Both the position numbers and the translations under genes were made by a program. This document shows, in pieces, positions 21,630 to 30,844 of a stretch of DNA of 37,716 nucleotides; the stretch's first letter is position 1, and each line of letters begins with the position of its first letter. The DNA is from an uncultured delta proteobacterium (GTDB taxonomy: Bacteria > Desulfobacterota > WTBG01 > CAIYCZ01 > CAIRTM01): positions 1 to 37,716 of the forward strand of contig CAIWCT010000300.1 in assembly GCA_903911225.1 (NCBI GenBank), written 5' to 3'. The notes beneath the pieces were generated by a model. It ran no database searches. It saw only the letters and a program-made list of their open reading frames with translations, and was not told the origin of the DNA.

Positions 21630-21639
21630 AAAAAATTGC

Positions 21640-21663
21640 AGGGAACGGTCGCGACCGTTCCCT
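21640..21663. repeat. 24-bp perfect palindrome downstream of the MFS gene
   Basis: The half-site AGGGAACGGTCG is followed immediately by its reverse complement. It starts 11 bases after the MFS stop and has a related half-site (CGTTCCCT) at about 21675-21682. No T-run follows. Palindromes of this sequence type recur in several bacterial genomes, so a dispersed repeat is the simplest reading. Confidence 0.55.
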
Positions 21664-21771
21664 ACGCTTTCATTCGTTCCCTATATTGACAAATAATGCA
21701 TTAATTCAGGTTTAGATCCCTATTTTCTTTATCAGACCCCACACTGATCCCTGGCCCCCGCACCCTGATCA

Positions 21772-22503
21772 CTATTCCTTCCCCCCCACCATCGGCGCAA
21801 TTACTTCAAGCACCCTGCGCGCTGTTGCCTGCAAAACAGGACTATTTTCAAGGGCAGCATTGATGCTGTCGGCATTGTTGTAATAGATTTGAATTACCTT
21901 ACGGCCTACAGTGCTTTGCGCTAGTTTGCCGTCGCGAAAATCGCGCAGTTGCTCAACATTCGGATCATTGTCTCCAAGAGCCTTGGCGATCGGGCACTTC
22001 TTGCCTGGTGTCGTCGTTGTGGTTGTACCACCCGGAGTCGTGGTTGTGGTCGAAGAACCAAATGACCCACACTGTCCTGCACGCACGGCGCGAACGTCAT
22101 TGTAGTATGTCTTATCGTCGAAGTAGACGTAGCCGTAGTTGAAGTTCACGATCCACGCGCTGCTAGTATTGTATGCGAGCGGAGTAGACGACCAGTAAAC
22201 GGACGCCACCGTGTCCGGGAAAAAGGAGATGCTGATTGATGGGTTATAGTTATTATAATCAACAATCGACTGCAACTCGTTTCTGGTTGGCAGCCGCCAG
22301 TCGCTCTGCCCCCCAAGGGTCAGATTTTCGCAATAGGCCATTGCTTGCGCCCAGGTATAGGTGGTAAGCCCTGTTGACTTTTCCCACATGAGACCCGTAC
22401 TGGTATCGGTTATGGTGCCGTTATTATTATCAACATAGCCAGCGCAGGCATACCCATGCCAAAACACAACAGACATACATAAACAGAATAGACTTTTCTT
22501 CAT
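21772..22503 (-). CDS. Exported DUF1566 variable protein with a C-terminal anchoring-type module (putative DGR target 1)
   Basis: A 243-residue protein: signal peptide (1-22), a DUF1566/Lcl C-type-lectin-like domain (about 23-145: GLMWEKSTG, YCENLTLGG, SDWRLPTRNEL, FFPDT, YWSST, VRAVRAG), a Thr/Gly linker (TTTTTPGGTTTTTTPG) and a C-terminal module starting KKCPIAKAL with LRDFRDGKL and IQIYYNN. That module recurs in the protein at 29054-30844 and resembles CFI-box-type C-terminal domains. The end of the lectin domain (129 bp, 22070-22198) differs from the paralogue at 22635 only at template-adenine-compatible sites, the pattern of a DGR variable repeat. DUF1566 is a known DGR target family. 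The protein would present a diversified binding site outside the cytoplasm. The ribosome site is AAGGAGG. Confidence 0.85.
   Translation of the reverse strand: MKKSLFCLCMSVVFWHGYACAGYVDNNNGTITDTSTGLMWEKSTGLTTYTWAQAMAYCENLTLGGQSDWRLPTRNELQSIVDYNNYNPSISISFFPDTVASVYWSSTPLAYNTSSAWIVNFNYGYVYFDDKTYYNDVRAVRAGQCGSFGSSTTTTTPGGTTTTTTPGKKCPIAKALGDNDPNVEQLRDFRDGKLAQSTVGRKVIQIYYNNADSINAALENSPVLQATARRVLEVIAPMVGGKE
22070..22198 (-). repeat. Putative DGR variable repeat in DUF1566 gene 1 (VR1)
   Basis: Aligned without gaps to 22636-22764: 109 of 129 identical. The 20 differences fall in 14 codons, always at position 1 or 2, and all change the amino acid. The inferred template codons are mostly AAC/AAT. The sense 3' end (29 bases, 22070-22098, ending CGTGCAGGACAGTG) is identical apart from one template-A-compatible difference at its upstream edge, and is GC-rich, as expected of an initiation-of-mutagenic-homing site. 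Confidence 0.8.
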
Positions 22504-22634
22504 GCGCTTTCCTCCTTAAATCCAGATTACTTTCAACTGTGTCAGGTTGAGAAAGATGAGAGGGAATCAATTTTATTTTATTAATCCCTGAAAACTGATC
22601 CATGGCCCCTATAACCAAACAATCAAAGCACCAA

Positions 22635-23144
22635 TCACTGTCCTGCACGCACGGCGCGAACGTAATTGTAGTCTGTCTTACTGTCGTTGATGACGCTGCC
22701 GTAGTAGAAGTACACGCCCCACGCGTGGCCAGTACTGTCTGCGAGCGTAGTAGACGACCAGTAATAGGACTGCCCAGTGTCTGGGAAATAGGTCGTATTG
22801 ATAGTGGGGCTGTGTAATAAAATACTGCTGTACACAAGGGTCGATAATTCCAATATTGTAGGCAGATACCAGTCGGTATAGCCGCCGAGGCTGAGATTAT
22901 TGCAGTAATCAACTGCCTGCTGCCAGGTATATGTGCCCGTGGCTGTTGCCTTCTGCCACATAAGGCCGGTAACATTGTCCTTGATAATGCCGTTGCCGAG
23001 ATCGGTATAAGAATAAGGGTTGCAGGTTCGCTCGCTGGGGTCGCCCGTATCAGGAACCGGACCGGCAAAGGCAGCAGAGGCGCATATCAACAGGGCGCAT
23101 ACTGTGACAAAAGACCATAGATTCAACCATTTTCGTTTCCGCAT
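22635..23144 (-). CDS. Exported DUF1566 variable protein, short form (putative DGR target 2)
   Basis: A 169-residue protein with a signal peptide (cleavage near AAFA-G) and one DUF1566 domain (GLMWQKATATG, YCNNLSLGGYTDWYLP, YFPDTGQSYYWSSTTLAD, VRAVRAGQ). It ends right after VRAVRAGQ, at the exact point where its paralogue continues into a Cys codon, linker and C-terminal module; the boundary codon is TGA here and TGT there. Outside the 129-bp segment the two genes have diverged at all codon positions, but inside it they differ only at adenine-compatible sites. The start codon follows AAGGAGGATAAC. The two genes are tandem, 131 bases apart, and may be co-transcribed. Confidence 0.85.
   Translation of the reverse strand: MRKRKWLNLWSFVTVCALLICASAAFAGPVPDTGDPSERTCNPYSYTDLGNGIIKDNVTGLMWQKATATGTYTWQQAVDYCNNLSLGGYTDWYLPTILELSTLVYSSILLHSPTINTTYFPDTGQSYYWSSTTLADSTGHAWGVYFYYGSVINDSKTDYNYVRAVRAGQ
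22636..22764 (-). repeat. Putative DGR variable repeat in DUF1566 gene 2 (VR2)
   Basis: The partner of 22070-22198. Sixteen of the 20 differences have A in one of the two copies; the other four are G/T pairs, as expected when both copies were mutated from A. No difference occurs at a codon third position. The 5' limit is set at TTACTGG, upstream of which third-position changes appear. Confidence 0.8.
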
Positions 23145-23195: not shown

Positions 23196-23284
23196 TTTGT
23201 CATTCCGGCAAAGTCCGGAATCCTTCTACTGCTGGACATCATTCCTGGGAAAGACTCCGGTCAAGCCGGAGTGACAGAAAAAAA
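23196..23284. repeat. Dispersed-type palindromic unit (TGTCATTCCGG...CCGGAGTGACA)
   Basis: TTTTGTCATTCCGG at the left is matched in inverted orientation by CCGGAGTGACAGAAAA at the right, with one indel and one mismatch. Two inner CCGG hairpins (around CCGGCAAAGTCCGG and CTCCGGTCAAGCCGGAG) are visible. The layout is that of small REP/MITE-like elements that are widespread in bacteria. Confidence 0.5.
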
Positions 23285-23310
23285 GGCATGCCCGATTAAA
23301 GGCATGCCTT
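23278..23310 (-). terminator. Intrinsic terminator on the minus strand
   Basis: AAGGCATGCC and GGCATGCCTT (23283-23292 and 23301-23310) form a 10-bp stem with an 8-base loop, followed on the minus strand by a run of T (23284-23278). It can end transcription of the HEPN/NTase operon that finishes at 23585. Confidence 0.65.
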
Positions 23311-23364: not shown

Positions 23365-23416
23365 GCTCCTGGCTCCTGGCTCCTGGCTCCTGGCTCCTGG
23401 CTCCTGGCTCCTGGCT
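23365..23416. repeat. Seven perfect tandem copies of the heptamer GCTCCTG
   Basis: Units run 23365-23371 through 23407-23413, plus GCT. Copy number is likely to vary by slippage. The array is intergenic. Confidence 0.9.
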
Positions 23417-23584: not shown

Positions 23585-24037
23585 TTACTCTTCTCTGGCC
23601 TTGGAGGGAGTGCAACCCTTCGAAGCGGACATACCGCTACTACTGTCGGGCTTTAAAATCTCCGATCTTATTGTTTTAATAAATGTAGCTGCATTTTCAA
23701 GCACTCTTCGTGCTCTTTCCGGAGTTATGAGAAACATTTCCTGATAGTCGGATCGTTGTCGCAAATCAAAAGCCTCATGAAGCCATTTTGATGTTTCTTT
23801 CTCAAAAACTCCATTTTTTATATAGAGACGATCAAACTGAGATATGATTCCGGAATGTTTGGATGAGCCTTTTCCTTCCAGTGCAAGGAGCGCAAGAACA
23901 GAGTAAAACATTGCATAGTACGCCCTGTTGACTGAAGGCCGGTATTTCTCGGAGTCGAATAGAATTTGAGCAGCCTCAAGAGATTCTTGAGCCTGCTCAA
24001 GCCTGAAGTTTGCCAGTGTTCTCAAAGCGTCCTTCAT
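23585..24037 (-). CDS. HEPN-domain protein (UPF0332 family), partner of an NTase
   Basis: A 150-residue helical protein. SVNRAYYAMFYSVLALLALEGK at residues 35-56 and KHSGIISQFDRLYIK are hallmarks of UPF0332 (COG1895/COG2250) HEPN proteins. In related MntA-HepT pairs the HEPN protein is an RNase toxin with an R-x4-6-H motif. Here the Arg in NRAYYAMF (Arg38) is present, but no His follows at the expected distance, so nuclease activity is uncertain. The start ATG (24037-24035) overlaps the NTase stop by four bases. The extreme C-terminus (SSSGMSASKGCTPSKAREE) looks unstructured and may be recent read-through into intergenic sequence. Confidence 0.85.
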   Translation of the reverse strand: MKDALRTLANFRLEQAQESLEAAQILFDSEKYRPSVNRAYYAMFYSVLALLALEGKGSSKHSGIISQFDRLYIKNGVFEKETSKWLHEAFDLRQRSDYQEMFLITPERARRVLENAATFIKTIRSEILKPDSSSGMSASKGCTPSKAREE

Positions 24038-24351
24038 GCCGCTATGCCGTCGTGTAAAATTGTTTTGATAAGCGGGCTTTCCGAAACCGGGCCATGCTCA
24101 AATTCGTTGCGCGCATAGGTAACCGTTGATATGACCACATCATGTTCAAAGCCAACTTCCCAGGCAATATCCATAATCATCTGATCATTGTCATCGTCAA
24201 GTTTTTCCAGCACGACGCACACATCAAGGTCTGAATCAGGCGCTGCCGTACCCCGAGTACGCGAACCAAAGGCTGTCACCTCGGCGGTGGAAAAAAGCTG
24301 CCGAACCCTTGCCGTAAAAAGAGAAAGAATAGCGCGATCAGTTTCATTCAT
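24034..24351 (-). CDS. MNT-type nucleotidyltransferase paired with HEPN
   Basis: A 105-residue minimal nucleotidyltransferase. The start is placed at ATG 24351 behind CAGGAGA; the upstream ATG at 24420 adds a non-conserved leader. The catalytic signature GS(29-30)...DSDLDV (Asp41 and Asp43) is complete, and FEHDVVIS supplies a likely third carboxylate. In studied MntA/HepT modules the NTase adds AMP units to the HEPN partner and silences it. The overlapping stop and start (ATGA) with the HEPN gene supports such a toxin-antitoxin-like pair, probably linked to phage or stress defence; this is inference from the family. Confidence 0.88.
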   Translation of the reverse strand: MNETDRAILSLFTARVRQLFSTAEVTAFGSRTRGTAAPDSDLDVCVVLEKLDDDNDQMIMDIAWEVGFEHDVVISTVTYARNEFEHGPVSESPLIKTILHDGIAA

Positions 24352-24532
24352 ATTAGTATCTCCTGAGAAAAAGGCTTTATTTGCTAAGGTAAAAGCCACC
24401 CATTTTGTTAAAACAACCATAAAAAAGACTATTCATTTTAAGTATACCCTTTTTTTTGAAAAATATCTCCTATTTCAAGATATTACAGGATAGTTCGTCG
24501 CAGATACATTCACACTGAAACTCTGCCCCGCA

Positions 24533-29053: not shown

Positions 29054-30844
29054 CTACTTCACCTGTTTTTTTAGCCCCAGCTGTCTGAGCACGGCATCGT
29101 CCTGCAGATCGGATAAAACAGTTGCAAGAGCACTACGCATATCTGCTCCAGCCTTGGCGCCAATGTCATCAGCGATAATTTTAATTGCAAGAGCCAAATG
29201 CTCCGGCAGCTCAACATCAGTGCCGCCAACCAGAAGTTTGTTAAAAACGGGCAGCGACTCAACAAGCACTGCAGCAACTTTGAACTTCAGCCCGTTGTCG
29301 GCATCCAGAAGATGCGAAATCTCCTGCCCATACGTATAATAAAGCTGCACATATTCCCGGCCCCTGTCTGTTTGAGACAGAACTGTGTCTCTGAACAGCC
29401 GCAGAACAGAGAGCTGCTGCACGTTATTGTCAAGAGCCTTAATGGCAGGACAGTACCCAAGTCCGGGGAAAGGAAATCCGATCTTGCCGCGGTTCAGCGC
29501 GGCATTGATTCTTTTTACCGTTTTGCCCGGCCCGACCACGATCTTGGCCGCCGCCTTAAAATCCTTCCTGTTTCTATACCACTCCGAGTCGTAGCCGGCT
29601 GCATAGGCATCAAAATAGAGTTTGTAATTACCCCGGGACAGGCCTCGTATTATATATGTGCCATTATCGGCAGTCACGACACTATCGACAAGCACAACAG
29701 CTGCTTCCGGCCCGAAAGTGGGGGCATTAGCATCATACACCACAACCTCCGTATCCGGCACACCACGGCGCCAGAAACTCCACACTTTACCCGTTATAGT
29801 TCCGGACAAGGCAAGCTGAGCATTGATGGACTGTGTTTCCTGACCTGCCGACACCGTTACATTGTCGGCCGAGGCAAAAGAGTTTTTGTTGTTATACCAT
29901 TCTCCCGCAAATTGCGCGGCCCCGTCTTTGGGCTCAAAATATATTTTATACTTACCGGGCAGCAGGAAATTAAACGTGTAGGTTCCGTTGTCTTTGGTAA
30001 TGTCCGTATCGATGGGCTCATCATATGCGCCATCGGTTGCATACAGCCGAACGCCGATACCGGGCAGGCGATTGCCATCAGGATTTGTTACCCAGCCAGA
30101 AATGCTTCCCGCGGCTGCAAGACGTGCATCGATGTTGTTAATTTCCTGGCCGTAGGATTCTATAAGCAGGGTCTGAGCCGCCGCCTTTGATGCCGTGTTA
30201 TCGAACCATTCCCAGGCGAAATTGCCCTCAGAATAAAAGCCGTCGAAAAAAACCCTGTAAGCGGCTACGGGCAGACCAGCCACTGTATATGTCCCGTTAT
30301 CATAGGTGTCTGCATAATAGACGCTTCCATACAGGCTTTCAGCCGATACCTGAACCTGTGCGATTCCCTTACCCTCGGCATCGGTCACCCGGCCTTCTAT
30401 GGAGCCGCCCACAAGCAGTTTGATATTTTTCACAACATCGGGCTCTGCATCCGACACCGAAAACCGGTCGGCATCATGAAAAGTATACTTGTCGTCATAC
30501 CACTCTGTAATATAGCGAAGAGGACTTCTGTTAAGGTCAACAAACTCCAGCTTGAAAACGCCTTTTGTTTGCCCTTCTTCCTGAAGTTCAGCCATTCTTG
30601 CCGTGATATCAAACAGGTAATGGCCGCTGGCGTCGGTAAAGGTTGATTTTTCAAGTTTTTCATGCTGGTCATAGAGATTTACCTGTATGCCAGCAAGCTT
30701 ATGGCCGCAGCAGTCTTCAACAGTGCCTGCTATGCTGTAGCTGGCCAGTGCAAGTGCATTGCCGGTGCAATACGCAACACAGCTCAGCACGACAGCCAGA
30801 CAAAACATGGTGAAAACTGTTATGCTATTCACTTTTTTCTGCAT
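29054..30844 (-). CDS. Secreted protein with four carboxypeptidase-regulatory-like beta-sandwich repeats and a C-terminal module shared with DUF1566 protein 1
   Basis: A 596-residue protein with an N-terminal signal (hydrophobic 8-32). Four CnaB/carboxypeptidase-regulatory-like units follow, each with the pattern G(T/S)I.G.V....G.....V.VY..., DNGTY.....LP.G.Y++YF and EWY(N/D)(N/D)K..F..A..V.V..G (EWYDDKYTFHDADRFSV, EWFDNTASKAAAQTLLI, EWYNNKNSFASADNVTV, EWYRNRKDFKAAAKIVV). The C-terminus from about residue 473 (YCPAIKALDNNVQQ...LRLFRDTVL...VQLYYTYG) aligns with the end of the DUF1566 protein at 21772. Such sandwich repeats act as stalks or binding modules in surface proteins. The ribosome site AAGGAG precedes ATG 30844. 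A structural or adhesive role is inference. Confidence 0.82.
   Translation of the reverse strand: MQKKVNSITVFTMFCLAVVLSCVAYCTGNALALASYSIAGTVEDCCGHKLAGIQVNLYDQHEKLEKSTFTDASGHYLFDITARMAELQEEGQTKGVFKLEFVDLNRSPLRYITEWYDDKYTFHDADRFSVSDAEPDVVKNIKLLVGGSIEGRVTDAEGKGIAQVQVSAESLYGSVYYADTYDNGTYTVAGLPVAAYRVFFDGFYSEGNFAWEWFDNTASKAAAQTLLIESYGQEINNIDARLAAAGSISGWVTNPDGNRLPGIGVRLYATDGAYDEPIDTDITKDNGTYTFNFLLPGKYKIYFEPKDGAAQFAGEWYNNKNSFASADNVTVSAGQETQSINAQLALSGTITGKVWSFWRRGVPDTEVVVYDANAPTFGPEAAVVLVDSVVTADNGTYIIRGLSRGNYKLYFDAYAAGYDSEWYRNRKDFKAAAKIVVGPGKTVKRINAALNRGKIGFPFPGLGYCPAIKALDNNVQQLSVLRLFRDTVLSQTDRGREYVQLYYTYGQEISHLLDADNGLKFKVAAVLVESLPVFNKLLVGGTDVELPEHLALAIKIIADDIGAKAGADMRSALATVLSDLQDDAVLRQLGLKKQVK

Follow-up and report, generated by a model that had tools for sequence, protein, structure and literature searches.

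Two remote Lcl_C variable repeats, probably last written by a second, diverged template, in a draft genome that carries a complete DGR

The stretch of DNA analysed here (the window; 37,716 nucleotides) corresponds to contig C300 in the draft genome of an uncultured delta proteobacterium; the draft has 455 contigs and is estimated to be 85.5% complete with 4.96% contamination. Two tandem genes on its minus strand, ORF1 and ORF2, encode proteins with an Lcl_C (DUF1566) domain, and each contains a segment that we treat as a variable repeat (VR1 and VR2, respectively). The features of the locus are given below, with mismatches counted against the template repeat (TR) found on contig C55 of the same draft.

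21638-21665, minus strand: terminator-like hairpin downstream of ORF1, a 12-pair stem followed by a T run (consensus match only)
21772-22503, minus strand: ORF1, Lcl_C (DUF1566) target protein of 243 aa (Pfam accession PF07603, 128.9 bits; cut-off 34.9)
22069-22211, minus strand: VR1 of ORF1, with 28 mismatches to the C55 TR, 19 of them at TR adenines
22070-22097, minus strand: GC-rich 3' block of VR1, the same in both window repeats
22635-23144, minus strand: ORF2, Lcl_C (DUF1566) target protein of 169 aa that terminates at its own variable repeat (PF07603, 117.1 bits; cut-off 34.9)
22636-22770, minus strand: VR2 of ORF2, with 28 mismatches to the C55 TR, 20 of them at TR adenines (29 and 20 with one extra edge column)
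22636-22663, minus strand: GC-rich 3' block of VR2, the same in both window repeats
23283-23310, minus strand: terminator-like hairpin upstream of ORF2, an 11-pair stem followed by a T run

The variable repeat forms the end of the Lcl_C domain in both genes and the end of the gene in ORF2 only. An initial sequence-only reading had placed the repeat at the C-terminus of the domain, which is accurate for both Lcl_C domains, but the ORF1 gene runs on past its repeat through a Thr-rich linker into a C-terminal CFI-box domain (NCBIfam NF041770, residues 177-233, 44.8 bits; cut-off 40). Hydrophobic N-termini, judged by eye, suggest that the products of both genes are exported. A hairpin like that at some DGR target sites was sought after the window repeats, and no convincing one was found.

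Several other elements of the window were recorded. Upstream of ORF2, a 7-bp unit is perfectly repeated in tandem over 7.4 copies (23365-23416). Also upstream of the target pair, genes for a HEPN-domain protein (23585-24037, minus strand) and a nucleotidyltransferase (24034-24420, minus strand) overlap by 4 bases, a layout that we take to be that of a HEPN/MNT toxin-antitoxin pair. A window protein encoded at 29054-30844 (minus strand) matches the CFI box just below the cut-off of 40 (36.3 bits) and a radical-SAM-associated lipoprotein family above its cut-off of 39.8 (48.2 bits).

A comparison of the two repeats revealed a tightly restricted pattern of variation. Between minus-strand segments 22070-22198 and 22636-22764, 20 of the 129 positions vary, and in either gene every one of the 20 is a first or second codon position. 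One copy has A at 16 of these positions, and the other four are G/T pairs. These counts exactly reproduce those of the sequence-only reading, as do the 14 residues altered inside the 129 bp and the absence of third-position differences; a codon alignment gives 15 altered codons of 43, one of them just outside the segment. The near-invariant GC-rich 3' block described in that reading corresponds to the last 28 bases (offsets 101-128), which are identical between the copies, and the VR1 block may, by analogy, mark the position of a DGR initiation-of-homing site. Upstream of the repeat, codon positions 1, 2 and 3 differ in 38, 38 and 58 of 101 aligned codons, bearing out the claim that the genes vary at all codon positions outside the segment. 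Third positions inside the repeat, in contrast, differ in 0 of 43 codons, versus the 58 of 101 upstream (codon alignment; Fisher p=8.5e-13).

A DNA search of the genome with VR1 identified, beyond the window, three places on C55 (80, 75 and 70% identity) and weaker matches on C44, C228 and other contigs, while VR2 gave an additional 40-base match on C426. Contig C55 (locus L030; 7,967 bp) encodes a complete DGR, in the order target A, bAvd, TR, reverse transcriptase (RT), target B.

C55 318-833: Lcl_C target A, with 28 mismatches to the C55 TR, 26 of them at TR adenines
C55 951-1331: bAvd (PF22296, 50.3 bits; cut-off 40)
C55 about 1450-1592: TR, which reads as a run of asparagine codons
C55 1587-3095: RT (RVT_1 over cut-off), with IGNLTSQ and YVDD motifs
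C55 3400-4149: Lcl_C target B, with 24 mismatches to the C55 TR, 24 of 24 at TR adenines

We take IGNLTSQ and YVDD to be DGR-type RT motifs. Three elements had been predicted to lie elsewhere in the genome, namely an avd gene, a DGR RT and a TR whose variable codons read AAC, and all three occur together on C55; three further PF22296 (Avd) matches in the genome are all below the cut-off. A scan of named genomes for relatives of the RT yielded a best 80 loci, including L073 from the Thermodesulfobacteriota MAG PL23a_bin.71, and 64 of these 80 have an adenine-confined TR/VR pair in the scan. Judged by these sequence relatives, the C55 RT belongs to a DGR clade.

ORF2 is a paralogue of C55 target A, with 15 of 126 codons differing at the third position upstream of the repeat. 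A sequence similar to the hairpin upstream of ORF2 is also present, as judged by eye, upstream of target A. Contig C55 starts within a 7-bp repeat (L030 1-130) similar to that upstream of ORF2, again upstream of target A, and this repeat may be the reason why the contig breaks at that end.

Other candidates in the genome were set aside. The two RVT_1 matches that the genome has besides the C55 RT, on C392 and C307, were rejected as DGR RTs on their motifs TPQGGVISP and TPQGAVISP, respectively, which are presumably of group II type. A both-strand TR/VR scan found no adenine-confined relation to the C55 TR for the partial match on C228 (66% to VR1), for an ORF on C426 whose end aligns with Lcl_C by sequence, or for the multi-copy Lcl_C-like sequences with YWSSTS motifs on C44 (L031 100-873 and 1177-3306 (-)).

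Comparison with the C55 TR ties the window repeats to this type of DGR. Nineteen of the 20 positions that vary between VR1 and VR2 are A in the TR, where A accounts for 46 of the 129 aligned positions (hypergeometric p=2.5e-9). By this template, the proposal that each difference derives from an ancestral A stands for 19 positions and is not upheld for the twentieth (G versus T), which is T in the TR. Across VR1, VR2 and target B, 63 TR adenines are altered (to G in 28 cases, to T in 28 and to C in 7); 62 of the 63 lie at codon position 1 or 2. VR1 is identical to the TR at 108 of 136 positions, with identity extending 7 more bases 5' of the core, and at the 3' end of the repeat the TR has AAG where VR1, VR2, target A and target B have CAG (A to C), a candidate IMH/IMH* difference.

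Because a complete DGR is present in the same draft genome and 19 of the 20 differences fall on TR adenines, we interpret the window segments as two remote variable repeats, in agreement with the initial reading of both genes as DGR targets. We hold with near certainty that these are the variable repeats of two Lcl_C (DUF1566) targets of a DGR acting in trans; a second, diverged template probably wrote them last, and their products would be exported binding proteins. In such a system, the DGR RT and Avd would copy template-repeat RNA while misreading its adenines, and the resulting cDNA would replace the matching stretch of each target gene, with altered residues expected where the template has AAC/AAT codons. 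The pattern at the window repeats points to recent rewriting activity. The only link from C55 to the window is binning. In tetranucleotide composition, C55 lies as near to the window as segments of the window lie to one another; this fits one genome, but it fits the sister species G001 equally well.

We asked which template wrote the window repeats. VR1 and VR2 each differ from the C55 TR at 8-9 non-A columns of 136, and eight of these differences are common to both repeats, all of them third-position and silent. C55 targets A and B carry the TR letters at those eight silent positions, and target B does so at every non-A position. The 21-base core of the window 3' block is found exactly in the genome only at VR1 and VR2, and the three C55 copies have another version of it, with three mismatches common to all three. 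The C55 TR in its present form was thus not the immediate template, since its cDNA would carry the TR letters at the eight silent positions. The template predicted for these repeats was therefore recovered on C55 as to type, but the eight common non-A differences set it apart from the one that was last copied.

As a yardstick, we used three of the five assemblies with two RT loci among the best 80; in each of the three, both DGRs are of this clade. Non-A mismatches in these genomes number 0-3 against a repeat's own template, values that are low partly by selection as those repeats were found through the adenine filter, versus 1-16 against the other template (8 comparisons each; the 1 comes from a 53-column alignment). 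The window count of 8-9 lies in the other-template range, which leaves two candidates for the last writer of the window repeats: a second, diverged template or, with lower probability, the C55 template in an earlier form. The best explanation is that a second template, diverged from the C55 TR and now unassembled or lost, probably wrote the window pair last. DNA searches with VR1, VR2 and the 21-base core found no second template in the 85.5% complete draft, and a template with the window silent letters was found neither at ≤1 mismatch in the other 16 of the 17 class genomes nor as an exact match in IMG/VR.

The sister species G001 provides a view of the history of the target pair. It carries an orthologous pair at the same locus, flanked by the same neighbours (89% amino acid identity for a Memo protein, 84% for an MFS transporter and 83% for a radical SAM protein); no C55-type RT was found in its 76% complete draft at E<=1e-20. 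Outside the repeat, comparison with G001 shows third-position differences in 26 of 101 ORF1 codons and in 31 of 125 ORF2 codons. Within the repeats, the two G001 copies differ from each other at 16 of 43 third positions and the window copies at 0 of 43, versus about 25% expected had the latter last been rewritten before the split (4e-6 at equal rates; Fisher p=2e-5). This lack of silent differences suggests that rewriting of the repeats continued in the window lineage after the two species split and, by inference, that it ended earlier in G001. Relative to the G001 orthologues, C55 target A is nearer to ORF2 (15 of 126 third positions versus 31 of 125), and target B is more distant from ORF1 (43 of 101 versus 26 of 101). 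The G001 orthologue of ORF1 (L055 7001-7792, minus strand) has, after the Thr-rich linker, a very different tail instead of the CFI-box region.

A broader scenario, which we advance tentatively and rate at somewhat below an even chance, is that two paralogous templates of one DGR clade run, or lately ran, in this genome: the C55 template for its own two targets and an unseen one for the tandem pair, at a site fixed since before the genus split. The silent letters would then act as barcodes, each template rewriting only its own targets despite about 80% identity.

With a single DGR RT and a single TR assembled, it is also conceivable that the C55 DGR itself once wrote the window repeats and that its TR later changed at about eight silent positions, in which case a single DGR suffices. 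Silent template sites are probably free to drift, but the C55 targets bear the present TR letters, so that the change must predate their last rewriting, and the window repeats would never have been rewritten again. Eight third-position changes in about 43 codons, moreover, amount to at least as much as separates the paralogues ORF2 and target A in their flanking sequence (15 of 126), and we consider this history unlikely, though deserving of serious attention. A quite improbable option is that C55 comes from another related organism binned into the draft, with the window's own DGR elsewhere. The contamination estimate leaves room for this, C55 cannot be told apart from the sister species by composition, and the window repeats mismatch the C55 TR; against it, C55 is as near the window in composition as the window pieces are to one another, and the sister-species orthologue is more distant from ORF2 than target A is. 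Even if the DGR belonged to a close relative, the reading of the window would stay as it is.

Dispensing with a retroelement altogether, gene conversion could homogenise tandem paralogues while positive selection acts on surface residues. The two paralogous genes are adjacent, and selection is able to favour amino-acid change, but 19 of the 20 differences lie on adenines of an independent template (p=2.5e-9) and conversion would not spare exactly those positions, which leaves this account with hardly any credibility.

The binding role of the ORF1 and ORF2 products is suggested by family knowledge, as the C-terminal domain of the Legionella Lcl adhesin is described as a C-type-lectin-like glycosaminoglycan binder (PMC11162425). 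We built a profile from 24 targets, taking 18 of the 34 obtained from a hand-picked subset of the 64 loci and adding six of the window, C55 and G001. It matches 8q4e, the solved C-terminal domain of Lcl (E=2.4e-9); a single-sequence search gave no such match. The predicted model is weak (mean pLDDT 64.5, and <50 across much of the repeat); adhesin and C-type-lectin-like chains rank highest for it in Foldseek, none at E<=0.001. Because our own model is weak and its PDB matches are not significant, we leave the putative binding role to family knowledge.

We take the Bordetella phage BPP-1 DGR to share adenine mutagenesis, an RT with Avd and a GC-rich 3' block of the repeat with the C55 and window sequences. 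That DGR is, as we understand it, phage-borne with a target adjoining the core; the present case differs in lying on bacterial contigs, in having remote targets and in the MutS_I (MSL) domain at the C-terminus of the C55 RT. The BPP-1 system is summarised in PMC6642488, and the GC-rich 3' block also features in PMC4891356.

DGR targets are reported to carry DUF1566 more often than any other Pfam domain (PMC6642488; for human microbiomes, PMC4159848). The DUF1566-target DGRs outlined in these sources resemble ours in their Lcl_C/DUF1566 targets, RT and Avd, adenine-confined TR/VR differences and several targets, but the window targets are remote from the core and depart from the sole assembled template at silent positions. 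Remote variable proteins outside the DGR locus are described for cyanobacteria (PMC7517822), where the link to the template is likewise one of identity (>50% there, 108 of 136 here for VR1); here, in contrast, the two targets stand in tandem, their locus is conserved in a sister species, and the genome is a probable relative of Thermodesulfobacteriota genomes. In Treponema denticola SP32, a remote target fits a template absent from its genome and is read as the leftover of a lost DGR or as acquired alone (PMC4891356). Both are DGR-bearing genomes in which a target repeat fits a template other than their own, but the other template is known from other isolates in the Treponema case and is unseen in ours.

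Published precedents exist for DUF1566 targets, for remote targets and for targets left behind by a DGR that is gone, and the second-template inference is the most informative part of our finding. Contig-based surveys that require a repeat beside the RT miss remote targets, according to the authors of one (PMC8144416); here, two such targets were recognised from sequence alone, and another contig supplied the DGR type to which they were linked. The template that wrote a target last can be tested simply from the target's silent letters, which is useful for following DGR gain and loss in uncultured lineages.

The C-terminal MutS_I (PF01624) domain of the C55 RT is also found in 36 of the 79 aligned related RTs. 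We dropped this domain as a novelty, since the DGR accessories already listed in print include an MSL with PF01624 (PMC10053308). The RT alignment comprises 79 rows (78 loci plus C55), L092 (no frame with the motif) and L117 having been left out. Many of its rows keep, by eye, an aromatic-x-Glu motif in the MutS_I domain, which presumably resembles the mismatch-reading motif of MutS.
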